From the NCBI RefSeq assembly GCF_000210915.2, contig NC_016620.1, positions 1,054,001 to 1,118,000 on the forward strand: a stretch of 64,000 bases of DNA. Reading direction: 5' to 3'. Positions 47,428-64,000 of this stretch are shown in pieces. Each line of letters begins with the position of its first letter. Position 1 is the stretch's first letter. A model generated the notes under the pieces. The model was given only the letters and a program-made list of their open reading frames with translations, was not told the origin of the DNA and did no database searches. This DNA comes from Halobacteriovorax marinus SJ. Its GTDB lineage: Bacteria; Bdellovibrionota; Bacteriovoracia; Bacteriovoracales; Bacteriovoracaceae. A program made the position numbers and the translations under genes.

Positions 47428-48240
47428 CTACTTCTGGCACTTAGGACAGTAGTAAGTTCCTCTCTGAGCAAGGTAGAGCTTCTTCACTGGAGTCTCATGG
47501 CAGAGTTGGCAAATCTTTTGATAGAAGACGACTAGGTGACCGACACCATTTCCTTTTGATCCCGTCGTATCAGCGTAGCCACCTTGAAAAGTTGTCCCAC
47601 CTGTTTGCGTGGCCCCATCAATAACTACGGCAGTGGCCTTATGCATTTTTATGATTTCATCTTTAGTGAGAGACTTATTTCTTCTAGTTGGTCTTACGCC
47701 GGCTCGAGCGCAAATTTCATTGACGATATAATTTCCCGTTCCTGCGTAGAGTTTCTGATCGAGTAGGTGAACTTTGATTTGTCGATTGGGATACTTCTTA
47801 ATTGTTGTGCTTAAATACTCTGGAGTATAGGCCTTATCTTTTAGATCAACTCCAAGCTCATCGAGTTTTTCCTGAGTTTGCAATTTATCTAATTGATACA
47901 TATGACCAAAGCGGCGCGGATCAACGTAGCTTAAATATCCACCTTTATGTTTAATGCATAGGTGATTATGTTTTACACCATTAGGATCAGTGGGTTTCTC
48001 TTTTCCTATTCTCCATCCACCAGTCATACCCAAGTGACTCAAGAGAAATTCATTCTTATCCAACTCAAAGTAGAGTAGCTTACCCTTTCTGTGAACAGCA
48101 ATAATCTTTCTACCACTCAATTCAATCGGCGTATGTGCAATCCCCGAAATCACTTTCGACTGAGTACACTCCAGCACCTTAATCGGCATGATCTCGTTTA
48201 ATTGATTCTTAATTGTTTCGACTTCGGGTAGTTCGGGCAT
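47428..48240 (-). CDS. mutM: Formamidopyrimidine-DNA glycosylase
   Basis: 270 residues. It begins MPELPEVETIKNQ with catalytic Pro2 and Glu3; GKLLYFELD has the conserved Lys; the helix-two-turn-helix region is at GTGNYIVNEICARAGVRP. The C-terminal zinc finger CQLCHETPVKK ... YYCPKCQK has all four Cys. It excises 8-oxoguanine. GGTGGA precedes the ATG. The first six codons are repeated at 52177-52194, at the other end of the accessory block. Confidence 0.95.
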   Translation of the reverse strand: MPELPEVETIKNQLNEIMPIKVLECTQSKVISGIAHTPIELSGRKIIAVHRKGKLLYFELDKNEFLLSHLGMTGGWRIGKEKPTDPNGVKHNHLCIKHKGGYLSYVDPRRFGHMYQLDKLQTQEKLDELGVDLKDKAYTPEYLSTTIKKYPNRQIKVHLLDQKLYAGTGNYIVNEICARAGVRPTRRNKSLTKDEIIKMHKATAVVIDGATQTGGTTFQGGYADTTGSKGNGVGHLVVFYQKICQLCHETPVKKLYLAQRGTYYCPKCQK

Positions 48241-48241
48241 A
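48224..48241. repeat. Left copy of an 18-bp direct repeat (mutM start)
   Basis: TCGGGTAGTTCGGGCATA, identical and in the same orientation at 52177-52194. Here it is the first codons of functional mutM on the minus strand. The two copies bound the 3.9-kb accessory block. Confidence 0.8.
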
Positions 48242-48366
48242 CATCCACCTTAATTAATTTGATAACTATTTTACCCATTTTAGATTAGGAATAAAAGATA
48301 CATCTTAAGAATAAGTATTCGATTTATATAGAATATTTTCGTAATACTTTCATTATTGCCTCTTGT

Positions 48367-48386
48367 AGTTGGTAAATTTACCAACT
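48367..48386. promoter_or_regulatory. Perfect 20-bp palindrome upstream of the toxin-antitoxin-like pair
   Basis: AGTTGGTAAATTTACCAACT is a perfect palindrome 22 bases before the TTG start of the 48409 gene. Type II toxin-antitoxin pairs are usually repressed by their own antitoxin at such a site, so this is the likely operator. TTGGTA inside it and TATATT at 48393 are spaced by 18 bases like a promoter, but that would start transcription after the ribosome site, so the promoter is probably further upstream. Confidence 0.65.
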
Positions 48387-48408
48387 GTGTGGTATATTGG
48401 AGGTAGCT

Positions 48409-48735
48409 TTGATTGAAAGACCTAGTGCTTTAGAAATTGTTGAAGCTAGTATTGAGTTTAATTTTCTAAACTATACAAAGTTAGAAATTGATTTAGCTCA
48501 TGTAAATAAAGATGGTAGGTCTTCTTACACTTGTGAAGATGTTGCTGAGATTGTTTCACATTTGTTAAATGATCTTAGACTAGAGGCCAGTGATGAGAAG
48601 AGTTTTGGTGAAGAAATCTGCTCGTACTTTGTTAGAAGTGGTGAGTTTAAAGATAAGAGATATAAACTGGTATTTTGTGTATGTAGCGATAGACCAGAAT
48701 CAATTGGAGTAATAACACTCCATAGAGTGAGGTAA
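48409..48735 (+). CDS. Putative toxin of a toxin-antitoxin-like pair
   Basis: The GGAGG at 48399-48403 lies 5 bases before TTG 48409, so I start there (108 residues) and not at the TTG inside the ribosome site. The C-terminal half (FKDKRYKLVFCVCSDRPESI then GVITLHRVR) looks like the strand-rich core of RelE-superfamily, BrnT- or DUF4258-like toxins, but no active residues can be assigned. It is followed 2 bases later by an HTH gene, the order of HigBA-type modules. The family is uncertain; the toxin call rests on context. Confidence 0.5.
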   Translation: MIERPSALEIVEASIEFNFLNYTKLEIDLAHVNKDGRSSYTCEDVAEIVSHLLNDLRLEASDEKSFGEEICSYFVRSGEFKDKRYKLVFCVCSDRPESIGVITLHRVR

Positions 48736-48737
48736 GT

Positions 48738-49016
48738 ATGAATCCTTATGAAGTAGACATTGATAAGTTACAAGAGTCTAAGGAAGTTAAAGATGAAAAA
48801 GAGCTTTTAAAATTAAAGCTTGTTTCAGCTTTTTTAAAGGCAAGTTCAAAAATGTCATCAGAAGAGATTATTTCTCTTACAGGCCTTCACAAGTCTGATC
48901 TTTCAAGACTTCGTTCGATGAACGTTAAGAGATTTACGATTGATAAGATTGTAGGGTTACTTGATGATTTAGGTTTTTCTACTAAGATCGATGTTGCTAG
49001 GAAAGAGGCTTCTTAG
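48738..49016 (+). CDS. XRE-type HTH antitoxin-like protein
   Basis: 92 residues with GAGGTAAG before ATG. KMSSEEIISLTGLHKSDLSR followed by FTIDKIVGLLDDLGFS is the HTH found in antitoxins of the HigA/HTH_37 group. A charged N-terminal segment (DEKELLKLKLVSAF) precedes it. It probably binds the 20-bp palindrome upstream and neutralises the 48409 product. Confidence 0.78.
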   Translation: MNPYEVDIDKLQESKEVKDEKELLKLKLVSAFLKASSKMSSEEIISLTGLHKSDLSRLRSMNVKRFTIDKIVGLLDDLGFSTKIDVARKEAS

Positions 49017-49086
49017 ATTGATTGGGACACCAAATATAGAGAAGTTTTGGTCAACTTTAAGCATTCTTTCGTATAAAGTTAAGTAT

Positions 49087-49260
49087 ATGGAAATTAGAAC
49101 AATAGATGAAAGTGAATATTCAAATGCAAAAGCACTCCTTTTAAAATGTTATAAAAAGCAAGCTCCGATGCATATAATTGAAAAAGAAGAAACTCTTGCA
49201 TGTGTCAAGGATGAAAGAGTTATTGGTATAGCTTCATTATGGAGGAATCAATTACCTTAG
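49087..49260 (+). pseudogene. GNAT acetyltransferase N-terminal fragment
   Basis: From ATG 49087 the frame encodes 57 residues (EIRTIDESEYSNAKALLLKC ... ERVIGIASLWRN) resembling the first two strands and helix of a GNAT domain and then stops. The acetyl-CoA-binding half is missing, so it is a remnant. The frame also runs open upstream to 48991 through the antitoxin gene. No good ribosome site. Confidence 0.5.
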
Positions 49261-49352
49261 ACCAGTCAGGTGGTAGGTTAATATACACAGTTATTAAAGA
49301 TGCTATTGTAATTAAAGTAATTAAGATTACATCTGATCACGATTATTCATAG
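49215..49352 (+). pseudogene. RelE-like toxin C-terminal remnant
   Basis: After a TGA at 49212 the frame reads SFIMEESITLDQSG and then GGRLIYTVIKDAIVIKVIKI, ending at TAG 49350-49352, which overlaps the AGGAGG site of the antitoxin gene. The segment matches the final strands of RelE/YoeB-like toxins (R-L-I-Y-x-V, V-I-K-V). The first half of the toxin is absent, replaced by GNAT-like sequence in another frame. The first ATG is at 49239. Confidence 0.5.
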
Positions 49353-49364
49353 GAGGCCAGTATT

Positions 49365-49649
49365 ATGAGTTTTAAAACTGGAAAATTGACAACAGGTAAA
49401 ATTCTAAAGGCATTTCGTAATAGATTTGGCCTTACTCAAAAAGAGGTTGCAAGTGCTGTTGGTGTATCTATCTCTAATCTGTCGGCACTAGAAAATGATA
49501 AAAGAAATATAGGTGCTGAATTAGCTGGAAGATTTTCTGTCATTTATGGAGTCAGAGTTGAAAGACTTCTATTTCCTAATGGGCTTAAAGAGTTAAAGGG
49601 CTATAAGAAGTTAGAAAGACTTAAAAGTAAGTTACAGGATGCAGCCTAA
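49365..49649 (+). CDS. XRE-family antitoxin-like regulator, orphaned
   Basis: 94 residues after a perfect AGGAGG. ILKAFRNRFGLTQKEVASAV with GVSISNLSALENDKRN is a classic HTH_3 domain; a basic C-terminus (KELKGYKKLERLKSKL) follows. Its position directly behind a toxin remnant suggests a former toxin-antitoxin module that lost its toxin. It overlaps the next frame by 11 bp. Confidence 0.82.
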   Translation: MSFKTGKLTTGKILKAFRNRFGLTQKEVASAVGVSISNLSALENDKRNIGAELAGRFSVIYGVRVERLLFPNGLKELKGYKKLERLKSKLQDAA

Positions 49650-50235
49650 TTATCAAGAAACGCAAAAACAGAAATTGGAATTAAAGACAATTGACTTTGT
49701 TGGCTTATTTGTTGTTTTTTGTTCCGTAGTTTCTATATTTGATGAACGTTATTATCTCTCTGATTTATTAAGCTCTTTTCGCTTTCAATATCTGAATTTT
49801 CTAGTTGCTTGGTTACTGTATACTTTAGTTATTCGAAAAAAAATCTTTATTGTTAGCGCATTAATTCCTATTGCTTTAAATCTTTTTTACCTTGCTCCAA
49901 CATGGATTGTGGACAAAATTGATAAAGCTGATCTGAAGATTTATTTTGCGAATTTATTAAGTAGTAATGATAAGTATGACCTTGTTATAAATGATATTCT
50001 TAAGAAAAGTCCCAACCTAGTTGTTTTACAAGAAGTTACTCAAGCTTGGGAAAAAGAATTAAGTAAATTATCAAAAAAGTATCCTTACAAAGTTGTAGTG
50101 TCTCGTGAAGATAACTTTGGAATCGCAGTCTATTCAAGTATTGAGTTTAAATCTTATAGGACATTTATAAGTTCTGCAGGGTTAGAATCATTATTGGTAG
50201 CGCTAAAAGTGTCCAATGAAAATATAACAATGTAA
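49639..50235 (+). pseudogene. Truncated membrane-bound endonuclease/exonuclease/phosphatase-family protein
   Basis: 198 residues: three membrane helices (VGLFVVFCSVVSIF, LNFLVAWLLYTLVI, IFIVSALIPIALNLFYL) followed by the start of an EEP domain (LKIYFANLLSSNDKYDLVIN, NLVVLQEVTQAWEKELSKL, GIAVYSSIEF). The frame stops just where the family continues into its His- and Asp-containing second half, so catalytic residues are missing. The first part is intact, including the QE metal-binding motif. Either a pseudogene or a shortened protein. Confidence 0.65.
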
Positions 50236-50495
50236 AAGTGAATTCTTCTTTTCTGCTCTTCAATTTCCTTAAAGCGTTGGTCATTGATTGGCCTATTCAC
50301 ATGAAGCCATACTCTTTTTACTTTTAAAGATATTGATTTTAAAAAAGATGAAATATTGAATTTTAATAAAACCATTTAATCCCCCTGATTAATTTCAGTT
50401 CGTTTCTGGTTTTATATATTGCGGATTACGTGCCAAGTTTTGAAAATTGGTATGCTTGAATGATTTTGATAGCTTATGGAAATAGAGGGTAAATT

Positions 50496-50566
50496 ATGAG
50501 AAATAAACTATCGCACTAAAGTATCGCGCGATAGTTTAAAGTATTGCATGGTTGCGATAGTTTTTT
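50496..50566 (+). other. Short open frame with alternating inverted repeats, leader-like
   Basis: GAGGG is followed 7 bases on by ATG-AGA-AAT-AAA-CTA-TCG-CAC-TAA (50496-50519). Within it AAACTATCGC (50505-50514) can pair with GCGATAGTTT at 50528-50537 or with the same sequence at 50554-50563, which runs into TTTTTT. TATCGCGCGATA (50522-50533) is itself a palindrome. This is the logic of a transcription attenuator, but no gene follows on this strand. Confidence 0.35.
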
Positions 50567-50635
50567 GGTTGTCTGTTTTTGAATGGATGACCAATACTTA
50601 ACAGGGGGAGCTAAATCAAGTAATGTTGTACTTTA

Positions 50636-50666
50636 ATAAAAAAAGAGCACCCAAATATTTGGGTGC
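50636..50666 (-). terminator. Terminator of the 50711-51514 gene
   Basis: GCACCCAAATATTTGGGTGC (50647-50666), a perfect 20-bp palindrome, followed on the minus strand by TCTTTTTTT. Confidence 0.88.
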
Positions 50667-50710
50667 CCTAAATTATATATCTTGTTTTTAATTTAATATA
50701 ATTCAATTAT

Positions 50711-51514
50711 CTAGATTCTTCCTTTCCCTTTGACAGAAATATCAGCTTCACATGAATCTTGTCCTTGGAAATCTCTTATACTACGCTTATCAACAATTTC
50801 ACAGCTCTTAAAATATTCTGAACATAAAGTTTTTGCTTGTTGAGTGGCCGCACGCAATGCTCTTTCACAGTTTTCATCAATATTAAGAAATTCATCATTT
50901 GAAGTAAAATTAGCAAAGAATTTCTTAGGTTTATACCAAGTTGATTCAAATTCTAAATAATAGGAATTAGAAAACTTAATATCTTCATAGTCTTCATTGC
51001 CTCTAAAAACTGTTTTTTCTTGCCCATCTATTTTATTCGTCAAATAAATCTTTTGCTCAGAAGGATTCAAAGAAATAGAAGTACTGAAGTAGCCACTAAA
51101 ATATCTTGACGTTGAAAACCAAGAACTATGTAGACTCGCTTCTGAAAAAGACTTTTTATCTTCATCGCATAAAATCATCCCTTGATCCACATTGTTACAA
51201 TTTTTATAGTAAATACTATTTTTGGATGTTTTATTCAAAATTTTGTTGGAATTATAGAAGAACTGAGAACTTAACCAAAAAGGCTGATGAATAACACTTG
51301 GTACACGCTCAATTTCGCGACAATAATTATCGCGATGTAATGGAGTCAAAAAGTGAACTTTAACACTTTCTTTTGAAAAACTTAGATATAAATTACAAGG
51401 AGAATGTGAACCTTTTAAAGTATAAAATCCATCGTCAAAATGATCATTTAGGCTACTGGCATAAGCAGTAAGTGAAAAAAGCGAGAATATTATTGGAATT
51501 AGTTTAGATCTCAT
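50711..51514 (-). CDS. Secreted Cys-containing protein of unknown function
   Basis: 267 residues; GGAGACACCC precedes the ATG. Signal peptide RSKLIPIIFSLFSLTAYASS. The mature chain has eight cysteines, including NNYCREI-like DNYCREIER, ENCERALRAATQQAKTLCSE and a C-terminal QDSCEAD, so several disulfides are likely. It ends in the basic VKGKGRI. I do not recognise the family. It has its own strong terminator and appears intact, unlike most genes in this block. Base composition is more AT-rich than the neighbours. Confidence 0.7.
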   Translation of the reverse strand: MRSKLIPIIFSLFSLTAYASSLNDHFDDGFYTLKGSHSPCNLYLSFSKESVKVHFLTPLHRDNYCREIERVPSVIHQPFWLSSQFFYNSNKILNKTSKNSIYYKNCNNVDQGMILCDEDKKSFSEASLHSSWFSTSRYFSGYFSTSISLNPSEQKIYLTNKIDGQEKTVFRGNEDYEDIKFSNSYYLEFESTWYKPKKFFANFTSNDEFLNIDENCERALRAATQQAKTLCSEYFKSCEIVDKRSIRDFQGQDSCEADISVKGKGRI

Positions 51515-51676
51515 ATGGGTGTCTCCTTCTATATTTTTTGAAATTTATATAAAATAAATATAAATCTGGCAAAATAATAACCTAGAGCCCCACCTTAAAT
51601 ACAGGAAAGAACATACATATTTGACTAAAATATCTACTTTTTTAGATGTCCCAATTGATAGTGCACTGTGGTGGAG

Positions 51677-52030
51677 TTATGCCAGAACCTTGTTCTCAGC
51701 CTTAATTCTAATCAAAAATAGGGACATACTTAAGAGGTAAAGGTAAATATTCGACGTATTCAGCACTAACCACCCAACCTGAGCAATAGCATAGCCAAGA
51801 TACATAGGGTGGCTCACAAAGCGATATAAGCCTTTAGTGATTTTCTCCCCACGCTTGGCAGGAGATACCCCTAACTTTGTTCCAAGGTCAATTGTGGCCA
51901 AAGTGACAATTAGAAAACCTACAATAGTAAATAGGTTTGCTATTAGGGAATGAAGTCTTGTTTCCATCCCTAGAGGGGCAGATAAATATAGTAGAGGTAG
52001 ACCGCTGGATAGGTAAGCTACTGTGGCCAT
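51677..52030 (-). CDS. Isoprenylcysteine methyltransferase-like protein, shortened
   Basis: 117 residues with three hydrophobic helices. SPAKRGEKITKGLYRFVSHP with MYLGYAIAQVGW is the signature of the ICMT/PEMT-type membrane methyltransferase family (R-x-V-x-H-P-x-Y-x-G). The chain stops at IRIKAENKVLA, about where other members continue with the conserved E-x-x-L ... Y segment, so the C-terminus seems lost. No ribosome site is visible. Possibly a pseudogene. Confidence 0.6.
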   Translation of the reverse strand: MATVAYLSSGLPLLYLSAPLGMETRLHSLIANLFTIVGFLIVTLATIDLGTKLGVSPAKRGEKITKGLYRFVSHPMYLGYAIAQVGWLVLNTSNIYLYLLSMSLFLIRIKAENKVLA

Positions 52031-52129
52031 GATTTTACTTGTAAAACTAAGTGATTGTTAGTACTGATGTAGATGCCCATTGGAACGCTTCCTTCGGGTG
52101 CAGACCACGCTGAAGCACCCTTTAATACT

Positions 52130-52193
52130 ACTATCTCATTGATTTAATTAGTTGTTCAATAAGTCGGGTCTATTCATCGGGTAGTTCGGGCAT
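52130..52193 (-). pseudogene. Degraded copy of the mutM 5' end
   Basis: The minus strand from 52193 reads MPELPDE then TAG, the conserved first residues of MutM. After the 18-bp identity, sequence similarity to the functional mutM start (GAACAACTAATTAA, ATCTC) continues weakly with small insertions, and a frame shift would read IEQLIKS where MutM has IKNQLNE. No ribosome site precedes it. Confidence 0.5.
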
Positions 52194-52194
52194 A
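52177..52194. repeat. Right copy of the 18-bp direct repeat
   Basis: TCGGGTAGTTCGGGCATA, identical to 48224-48241, 3,953 bp apart start to start. Confidence 0.8.
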
Positions 52195-52396: not shown

Positions 52397-53401
52397 ATGA
52401 GCAAACAATTTTGGATAGATCAATTCGCACCAACTGACTCTGAGTTACAATCTAGCTTTCTTAATCTAAATATTACTGACTGTAAGAGTACTGTTGAAGA
52501 GATTGGGTTTTCTTCTGCTAGTGGAGTGTCGTACGACAGTGCTGAGAATAGAGTATTTGGATTTGATGAGATTGTTGTTAAGTTTTATCGTCCGGGTAGA
52601 TGGTCTAAAGAGGCCATAGAAGAAGAGTTTGTATTTTTAAAGGACCTACAAGATCATGGTGTGTCCTTTGTTAGGCCAATTGGTGAGGTCGGCACGTGGA
52701 AAGGTTTAAACTATATTGTATATGAAAGAGTGGCAAGGCCCTATGTGGATGATCGATCTATTCTTGATGAAGAGTCAGTTAAGAGAATGGTTCATACTGT
52801 CGCGCAAATTCACAAAGTCGGCGCAAAGAGAGAAGCATCTCATCGACCATTCTTTAACCCTAAAGATATGGGTGAAGGTTGTTTTGAAGTAATTCAAAGA
52901 GCTGGTTTTTTACCTACTTCGCAATTTAAACGTTATGAAGACGTAATCAGTGAGTTAGTTAGGAAAGTCGCTTCATTTGGAGATATTCCTATTCAAAGGA
53001 TTCATGGGGATACTTATAGTGGCAATGTCTTATGGAAGGGGAGTCATCCCATCTTTATGGATCTCGATGACTTTCAAGTCGGGCCTGTTGCCATTGATGT
53101 TAAATTACTTAGCTTTCCATGGAGATTGGATTCATTATCAGAACAGATGGATAGGCGTGAGAGACGTGCCATTCAAAATGAAATGGTTCTAAAATTTTAT
53201 AGAGAAGTGAATGACTTTCCTAAAGAGTGGGAGAAACTCTTTCCACTTTTAAGTGTCTATAGAGATATTCAATTTGATGCTTGGTTTTCTGCCAGATGGA
53301 ATGAGCCGGGCTTTGCTAAGAACTACGAAGATGATGATATAACCCAAGAGAGTTGGTGGCTTGAGAACCTAGAGGGGCTTGAGGATTTACTCAATAGCTA
53401 G
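52397..53401 (+). CDS. srkA: Stress-response Ser/Thr kinase SrkA (RdoA/YihE family)
   Basis: 334 residues. ENRVFGFDEIVVKFYRPGRW has the nucleotide-binding Lys in the SrkA-specific VVKFYRP. RIHGDTYSGNVLW gives catalytic D205 and N210, and FMDLDDFQVGPVAIDVK the metal Asp. The alignment follows E. coli SrkA, which counters MazF-linked death under stress, over its whole length. No DsbA gene follows, unlike the enteric operon. TAAGGGTC precedes the ATG. Lies just outside the accessory block. Confidence 0.9.
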   Translation: MSKQFWIDQFAPTDSELQSSFLNLNITDCKSTVEEIGFSSASGVSYDSAENRVFGFDEIVVKFYRPGRWSKEAIEEEFVFLKDLQDHGVSFVRPIGEVGTWKGLNYIVYERVARPYVDDRSILDEESVKRMVHTVAQIHKVGAKREASHRPFFNPKDMGEGCFEVIQRAGFLPTSQFKRYEDVISELVRKVASFGDIPIQRIHGDTYSGNVLWKGSHPIFMDLDDFQVGPVAIDVKLLSFPWRLDSLSEQMDRRERRAIQNEMVLKFYREVNDFPKEWEKLFPLLSVYRDIQFDAWFSARWNEPGFAKNYEDDDITQESWWLENLEGLEDLLNS

Positions 53402-60628: not shown

Positions 60629-62224
60629 ATGAAGACTATTTTAAATACAGCTATTTTTCTTCTTATTTCACAGCTCTTTCTAAGTTGCTCTGATGGAGAG
60701 TTTGGAAATAATGTTAGGAGTTCAGATAGTGAAGAAGGTAGTAGTGCTGCAAGTGCGCTCTCTTCCATTGGACTTTATGGACAAACGGCACTAAGCGGCT
60801 CTACTGTAGACTTTGGAACAACCCAAAGCGATGCATGTCTCTCTACTATAACTGACTCTGATCGAAATATTTATTGCGCTGGAAATACAAATGGTGCCAT
60901 CGATTCAAGTGAAGCTGCAGATGCTACTGGTGATGCTTTTATTATGAAGATGGATAAGGACGGAAATCTTTTGTGGGTAACTCAATTAGGTTCAAATAAG
61001 GCGGCTGTCTTAGATAGCTCTAGTAGTGATGTTTGTTATAGTATCACTCTAGATGATGACGGTAACGTTTACTGCGCTGGAGAAACTTCGAGTGGTTTAA
61101 GTGAAACAAATGGCGGTGGAAGTGATGCCTTTGTCGCTAAACTTGATACAAATGGAAATATTATTTGGATTTCACAATTAGGTGGAGATACTGATGATGG
61201 TGTCATTGTTCAAAATGCTTCAGGTAATGAGCAGTGCTATGGTGTAAAAGTCGATAGTGATGGAAATGTTTACTGTGCTGGAAATACCTCAGGTGCTTTA
61301 GGTGAAGCAAATGCAGGGATAACAGATATCTTTTTTACAAAGTTAAATTCATCTGGAGCTGTTCAATGGGTAAAGCAATTTGGTAGTGCGACTGTTAATG
61401 TCGGTGGAAAAGCTGTAGATGCTAGTGCTCAGGACTCGTGCTATGGTTTGGATATAGATAGCAGTGGAAATTTATATTGTGCTGGTAGAACATCGGGAGA
61501 TTTTGCAGAACCAATAAGCGGAGTATTTGGAGATGCAGATATTATTTTCGCTATGGTTGATTCAACAGGAGCTCCACAGTGGGTTGCTCAATTAGGAACT
61601 GTAACAGGATCAGGTGACAATTCTGCAACGGATGAATGCTATTCTATAACTGTTTCTAATGATGGAAATCATGTCTACTGCGTAGGGCATACTGCAGGTA
61701 CCCCTGGTGAGACGAATGCCGGTGGCAATGATATTGTCGCTGTGAAGTTAGATGGAAGTGGAAATCTTTTATGGATTTCTCAATTAGGTGATGTAAAAGA
61801 AGTGCTTCTTTCAAGTGATTTTTCCCAATCAGAGTCCTGCGCTGGAGCTGTAGGGGTTTCAAATAATGGAACCTTTGTTGATGTTGATAGTGATGGAAAC
61901 CTTTATGCTACTTGTGCGACAGCTGGCGGAGCTGTGGCCGATACAAATGGTGGAGGTTTTGGTATAGATGTTTTTATTTTTAAAATGAAAGAAGCCGACG
62001 GATCTGTTGAATGGATGACTCAGTTAGGAAGTTCAATTCCTGGATCTAATGGGCATGAGATCCCATTCTCTCTTCATGTTGATAATGGCGTAAACTTAAT
62101 TGTCTCTGGACTACTCATTCATAATTCCGGTGGATTTATGGGGGGAGTTGACCTAGGAGCGGCCGGCTCTATTTATAATCCATTTCTGTTTAGAATGGGA
62201 TTAGATGGTTCATTCTCTCTATAA
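60629..62224 (+). CDS. SBBP-repeat lipoprotein, probable beta-propeller
   Basis: 531 residues; lipobox LFLSC at Cys20 (SQLFLSCSDGEF). At least six ~80-residue blades share LLWVTQLGS-type and DGNVYCAGxT-type strands: DGNVYCAGETSSG, DGNVYCAGNTSGA, SGNLYCAGRTSGD, NHVYCVGHTAGT. Most blades have a Cys pair (D-x-C-Y, then Y-C about 12-14 residues later), suggesting one disulfide per blade, which is not usual for SBBP repeats. It should be surface- or periplasm-exposed. Function unknown; propellers of this kind often bind proteins or sugars. 159 bases separate it from the methyltransferase gene, with no clear terminator. Confidence 0.85.
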   Translation: MKTILNTAIFLLISQLFLSCSDGEFGNNVRSSDSEEGSSAASALSSIGLYGQTALSGSTVDFGTTQSDACLSTITDSDRNIYCAGNTNGAIDSSEAADATGDAFIMKMDKDGNLLWVTQLGSNKAAVLDSSSSDVCYSITLDDDGNVYCAGETSSGLSETNGGGSDAFVAKLDTNGNIIWISQLGGDTDDGVIVQNASGNEQCYGVKVDSDGNVYCAGNTSGALGEANAGITDIFFTKLNSSGAVQWVKQFGSATVNVGGKAVDASAQDSCYGLDIDSSGNLYCAGRTSGDFAEPISGVFGDADIIFAMVDSTGAPQWVAQLGTVTGSGDNSATDECYSITVSNDGNHVYCVGHTAGTPGETNAGGNDIVAVKLDGSGNLLWISQLGDVKEVLLSSDFSQSESCAGAVGVSNNGTFVDVDSDGNLYATCATAGGAVADTNGGGFGIDVFIFKMKEADGSVEWMTQLGSSIPGSNGHEIPFSLHVDNGVNLIVSGLLIHNSGGFMGGVDLGAAGSIYNPFLFRMGLDGSFSL

Positions 62225-63493: not shown

Positions 63494-64000
63494 TTAGAGT
63501 CCCCACTTATTTTTTAAATAAGTCTCTACTTTTGTTCTTTCTTCGTCGCTGAGTATCTTATCGAATATTAGAAATTCTCCAATATATCCATTAAGTCGAT
63601 CACCACCAGTTTTATCATCACCGAGTACGTAGACACCATTACCTAGGAAGTCAGTACGAGGAAAGTAATTATTTCTATCAGTGTAGAGATTCACTCCATT
63701 TTCCCACTGACTTGATTGTGTTCCACTATCAGTGGCCGTCCAAATATTAAAAGATGTATCATCAAGATTTGCATTAATACCTGCTGAGTTGTAACCATAG
63801 GTAAAAAAGAATCCTCGTCTAGCGTCGTTACCACTATTAGCAGAGCCCTCTTGATAGAACTCAAAGAAGCACTTTCTAGAAGTATTAGTATCCATCTTTC
63901 CAACAGTAATTAGAGTGAGCCCTCCGTTATTTGTTCTTACAAATGTACCTTCAAGTCCTCGATCTAAGTCATCAAAGCGTACGGCCGGCAGCCCATTAAA
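63494..64000 (-). CDS. LamG/concanavalin-like surface protein, 5' part outside the window
   Basis: The minus-strand frame is open from base 64000 to the stop at 63494, so the protein begins beyond the window. FNGLPAVRFDDLDRGLEG, FFTYGYNSAGINANLDDTSF, LNGYIGEFLIFDKILSDEER and the ending VETYLKNKWGL are the LamG/concanavalin A-like C-terminal domain. Such domains cap large adhesin or cell-surface proteins in these bacteria. One Cys pair is not evident. An internal ATG at 63895 would be a false start. Confidence 0.85.
   Translation of the reverse strand, partial: FNGLPAVRFDDLDRGLEGTFVRTNNGGLTLITVGKMDTNTSRKCFFEFYQEGSANSGNDARRGFFFTYGYNSAGINANLDDTSFNIWTATDSGTQSSQWENGVNLYTDRNNYFPRTDFLGNGVYVLGDDKTGGDRLNGYIGEFLIFDKILSDEERTKVETYLKNKWGL

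Follow-up and report, generated by a model that had tools for sequence, protein, structure and literature searches.

The window, as we call the whole stretch of 64,000 nucleotides analysed here, contains an intact mutM open reading frame on the minus strand (47428-48240), which matches the Pfam families Fapy_DNA_glyco and H2TH and is 90% identical to mutM of G003 and G004. The first codons of this gene make up the left copy of an 18-bp sequence, TCGGGTAGTTCGGGCATA, that occurs at 48224-48241 and again, exactly and in direct orientation, at 52177-52194, with both copies reading on the minus strand; we refer to them as the mutM-side and outer copies of a putative att site. No other 18-bp direct repeat exists in the 64-kb window, shuffled windows yielded a mean of 0.02 matches, and a third copy is absent from the 3.44-Mb genome even when three mismatches are allowed. 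The repeat described by the original prediction, which had been made from the sequence letters, is thus borne out. A single 18-bp repeat is modest evidence by itself, and it might be a chance match flanking ordinary variable DNA; given the counts above and the comparative data below, this is scarcely credible.

The DNA between the two copies is about the lowest in GC of the window (32.1% versus a window mean of 36.6%). Next to mutM lies a segment (48242-48274, minus strand) that holds the present mutM leader and weakly resembles the arms of a family of integrative elements described below (arm profile score 1.0, P 0.044). It is followed by an inverted repeat, the palindrome GTTGGTAAATTTACCAAC (48367-48386), whose position makes it a possible operator of a first toxin-antitoxin-like pair on the plus strand. 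Counterparts of this pair, 86-96% identical, lie upstream of mutM in G013; the pair consists of a putative toxin with no family match (48397-48735; 86-88%) and a putative antitoxin of the HTH_37 family (48738-49016; 96%). Further along the plus strand, the last 36 residues of another toxin gene remain (49242-49352; 72% identity to residues 71-106) ahead of a second antitoxin, of the HTH_3 family (49365-49649). The latter is 94% and 89% identical to genes in the mutM arrays of G012 and G021, respectively, with mutM only 47-59% identical between the compared genomes, and in the second, integrase-carrying element of G021 the toxin gene is whole and stands beside a close relative of this antitoxin. 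Block genes found at this locus in other genera reach 86-96% identity, against 49-58% for mutM. The rest of the block comprises a truncated exonuclease/phosphatase-like gene (49639-50235, plus strand; the Exo_endo_phos profile is matched weakly and in its first part only), an open reading frame for a putative secreted protein of unknown function and no family (50711-51514, minus strand), and a methyltransferase-like gene whose N-terminal part is missing (51677-52030, minus strand; Pfam ICMT from profile position 30, NCBIfam from 67). Two element ends close the block on the minus strand: a relic with half a core, CCCGA (52042-52099), which over 58 bp has 95% identity with arms that adjoin cores in G018, and a truncated outer arm (52100-52176). 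Family profile searches detected no integrase or conjugation family among the block's open reading frames, and a phage or plasmid origin was rejected, since the block had no match in either collection. A tRNA as the target was rejected as well, since the window has none, and promoter-like matches are no commoner than in shuffles. The original prediction of toxin-antitoxin genes, truncated genes and AT-rich DNA was roughly right, the toxin-antitoxin genes being one putative pair and a second antitoxin behind a toxin remnant.

Within the repeat we distinguish a 14-bp core, CCCGAACTACCCGA, which encodes PELPE. When the mutM regions of 20 genomes were scanned for this core at up to two mismatches, relatives were seen to carry it one to several times upstream of mutM, at distances of up to 14 kb. 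All extra copies have the orientation of mutM, and inverted or downstream cores were absent from these regions. Across the 20 whole genomes, 38 matches were listed at no more than one mismatch, most of them at or upstream of mutM, and a reversed control pattern had 16 in total, about one per genome. A few core matches lie outside this location; several of these are on short contigs, which may be continuations of an array. An integrase-less unit of 1.9 kb (L054, on G018:C60) lies between two cores 4.2-6.1 kb upstream of mutM; it holds a small gene pair, toxin-antitoxin-like by eye, and its two 155-bp ends are alike (88% identity).

Tyrosine recombinases of about 400-430 amino acids are encoded directly upstream of mutM in G008, G015, G020, G021 and G024. 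We named this family, with a typical length of about 410 residues, IntM. In our alignment (A1), R232, H336, R339, H362 and Y371, the R, HxxR, H and Y of the catalytic set, are invariant, and the proteins match PF00589. Relatives at E<=1e-30 occur in 76 of the 129 genomes of the order; at that threshold, all five genomes of the window's genus, its own included, lack IntM, as does G013. An independent scan of one genome per species (84,980 species) recovered 50 IntM loci, all of them in Bacteriovoracales or Bdellovibrionales-type assemblies or in unnamed bins. The start of mutM follows IntM after 77-213 bp in 36 of the 47 scorable loci, and 10 of the 11 others have a core at no more than three mismatches in that place, where 0.004 per locus would be expected. 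Only L131 has none there, and it carries an exact core 1.4 kb further on. Two other sources of recombinase were considered and rejected. IntM acting in trans in the window's genome has no candidate at E<=1e-30, the recombinases of the genome's own islands scoring only 58 and 35 bits with the IntM model; serine resolvases, present in 12 of the 20 genomes, are not tied to mutM, and only in G015 does one lie within about 6 kb of the gene. Within 16 kb of one another, the window's genome encodes two other tyrosine recombinases and one serine recombinase (L148, G000:C1:763000-781500); these are not IntM, and the cluster is probably a separate island.

The ends of the block were compared with a profile of outer arms built from 21 IntM-associated sites, from which the window was excluded. 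The right arm of the window scores 17.6, a value reached by about one in 100,000 background positions (P about 1e-5). The window's right arm shares 36 of 50 positions with the arm of L131, and 20,000 random stretches never shared more than 30. With arm and core combined in one profile, the outer junction of the window scores 45.6 against a training mean of 45.9, and the next best position in 83 kb scores 15.4. The latter, a possible third site at 61305, was unconvincing on reading, and the DNA to the right of the block yielded no good attachment site. A break in homology marks where the elements end: the pairs L119/L121 and L102/L121 each show 96% identity that runs as far as the final core base and ends there, which places the element boundary where the repeat of the window ends. 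The original prediction regarded the right copy as a degraded beginning of mutM that reads MPELPDE and then stops. The reading itself is correct; the sequence beyond the shared core is the end of an element and not a decayed gene.

The arms of IntM elements have further features. Most other elements go on with TTTCACT/TTTCAT repeats, which may be integrase-binding sites; both right-end arms of the window break off short of these. On the integrase side, the arm has the consensus TTAATAAA.TTAA.A.GTTAA; because this stands ahead of the start codon, the element appears to supply both the leader and the start codon of mutM. The weak score of the mutM-side arm in the window (P as given above) suggests that its left end may have been rebuilt. 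In five other loci (L125, L126, L127, L141 and L112), direct repeats of the GGTTGGCATGGTTGGCAT type lie about 120 bp inside the outer ends, and these are a possible further binding site of the recombination machinery.

Integrase-carrying elements are found complete in several relatives. At mutM of G043, a tandem of three elements (about 29, 33 and 7 kb) is bounded by cores at 126815, 156197 and 188998 and by a weaker match at 195862. Both large elements have genes for TrbI, VirB4-like ATPases and coupling-type ATPases (of the TraG or FtsK type), and one also has a gene for a Replic_Relax protein; G008 has a similar gene set with SSB and Replic_Relax, and G021 carries two integrase-carrying elements in tandem. 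Judged by gene content, the IntM elements would be ICEs and smaller elements. Two loci, L117 and L138, have 1,249 bp in common at 99.3% identity and encode identical IntM proteins, with mutM proteins that are 34% identical. Barring an assembly error, this pair shows recent transfer between distant hosts.

The second copy of the repeat might instead have been made by homologous recombination with, or duplication of, a mutM fragment, with no site-specific enzyme, an alternative that the original prediction had left open. The core belongs to the coding sequence of mutM, and a few copies extend deeper into the gene (as in G017, 9 kb upstream). However, homologous exchange of the ordinary kind needs more than 18 bp, the core continues as a conserved element arm and not as mutM, and integrase genes adjoin it across the order. 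Moreover, the cores have one spelling also in genomes whose own mutM is written with different codons (G003, G004 and G013), which fits an element-borne copy and not a local duplication. An origin by homologous recombination is therefore not supported, and we consider it very improbable.

Site-specific insertion at the start of mutM, with loss of the integrase, is borne out by the core copies upstream of the relatives' mutM, the adjacency of IntM and the matching right end, and this part of the original prediction holds. We conclude that 48224-52194 is very probably a decayed, integrase-less integrative element, similar to a CIME, in an att site at the 5' end of mutM. The truncated arm, the second arm relic, the toxin remnant and the partial exonuclease-like and methyltransferase-like genes mark it as a decayed composite, and the truncated arm argues against full mobilisation activity of the block. 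The core copies and arms, among them the arm of G001 with a score of 16.2, suggest that IntM was once present in the window's genus. IntM would insert ICEs and smaller elements by crossover within CCCGAACTACCCGA. Such an element would have given mutM its present start codon and leader and displaced the old start to 52177; the integrase, transfer genes and arm repeats would then have been deleted, and the toxin-antitoxin genes may have helped the remainder to persist. Counting against a decayed element, no empty site, with mutM next to a SrkA-like gene as the original prediction had proposed to look for, was found in the sampled relatives. The weakness of the mutM-side arm and the lack of IntM throughout the genus count against it as well. 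The SrkA-like gene at 52397 is not the ancestral neighbour of mutM, since its homologues in relatives are only about 30% identical and located elsewhere.

Alternatively, the block could have lacked an integrase from the outset, having been brought here in trans, as a small unit, by the IntM of another element, with no decay in place. Small units without an integrase, 1.3-4.5 kb long and lying between cores, are common, and G002 and G013, neither of which has IntM, have 3.1 kb in common at 90% DNA identity beside their cores. Against this, the block of the window bears the marks of decay listed above, with relics of two arms, the genes that it has in common with other genomes do not begin exactly at the core, and loss of the integrase after arrival accounts for the same data. 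Arrival as such a unit is thus an unlikely account, and we retain that of an element decayed in place. On a broader scale, one may speculate that the mutM start anchors a cassette-like array, whose small units, lacking an integrase and often carrying toxin-antitoxin genes, pass between genera by means of IntM from other elements, each swapping the start codon and leader of mutM. This is a doubtful proposition at present; if it were true, arrivals could retune the repair of oxidative damage and the mutation rate.

ICEs, CIMEs and targeting of gene 5' ends are known kinds. CIMEs are cis-mobilizable elements that arise by decay of ICEs or IMEs, with tandem accretion (PMC5704250). Like them, the block has lost its integration and transfer genes and keeps two att copies at a site that stacks tandem elements, and related complete IntM elements with type IV secretion genes use the same mutM site. 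It differs in that its target is the 5' end of mutM and that its outer arm is truncated, so that it is perhaps no longer mobilisable; it differs from an ICE or IME in having no integrase gene of its own, which the elements of relatives possess. At dusA, integrases target the 5' end of the gene and the island replaces the gene start (PMC4482086). The dusA islands resemble the mutM elements in the tie between a tyrosine integrase and the 5' end of one conserved protein gene, the new 5' end, the varied cargo and semiconserved direct repeats of about 20 bp. The gene and the hosts are different, excision of the dusA islands was shown by PCR whereas the mutM elements are known from sequence, and the integrases are likened by description. 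The SpyCI islands of Streptococcus pyogenes integrate at the 5' end of mutL, with integrase decay and rescue of the gene by island DNA described (PMC3430984). They likewise enter the start of a DNA-repair gene, but they are phage-like and the gene serves mismatch repair. Integron cassette arrays, too, line up small units between recombination sites that all point the same way, and some of the units hold toxin-antitoxin genes. In contrast, IntM reaches 16 bits with the integron-integrase model TIGR02249, far below the 265-bit cut-off, its core lies within a protein gene, and full IntM elements carry their own integrase and transfer genes.

A search of largely open-access literature returned no report of mutM as an integration site, and the gene goes unmentioned in a genome paper on Halobacteriovorax marinus (PMC5760749). 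The attachment site and integrase identified here belong to a family of transferable elements that extends across the predatory Bacteriovoracales and some Bdellovibrionales assemblies. They provide a precise handle for finding genomic islands in these predators, for which the vehicles of gene exchange have been little described. Since an insertion gives a DNA-repair gene a new start, a link to mutation rate can be tested, as was shown for the islands at mutL (PMC3430984).

To the right of the block, from 52195 to the end of the window at 64000 and on to about 66.9 kb, lie some 15 kb of genes (SrkA-like, ArsR, MFS and others) that are mostly missing beside mutM in the relatives compared. Gene order agrees with that of G003 again from about 18.7 kb upstream of mutM, and the genes from 52397 rightwards may be older insertions. 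In G013, a 127-bp copy of the genome's own mutM 3' end (97% identical; L043 and L026, G013:C1:659168-659296) is located some 3.5 kb downstream of that gene and might be the trace of a different element that used the other end of mutM.
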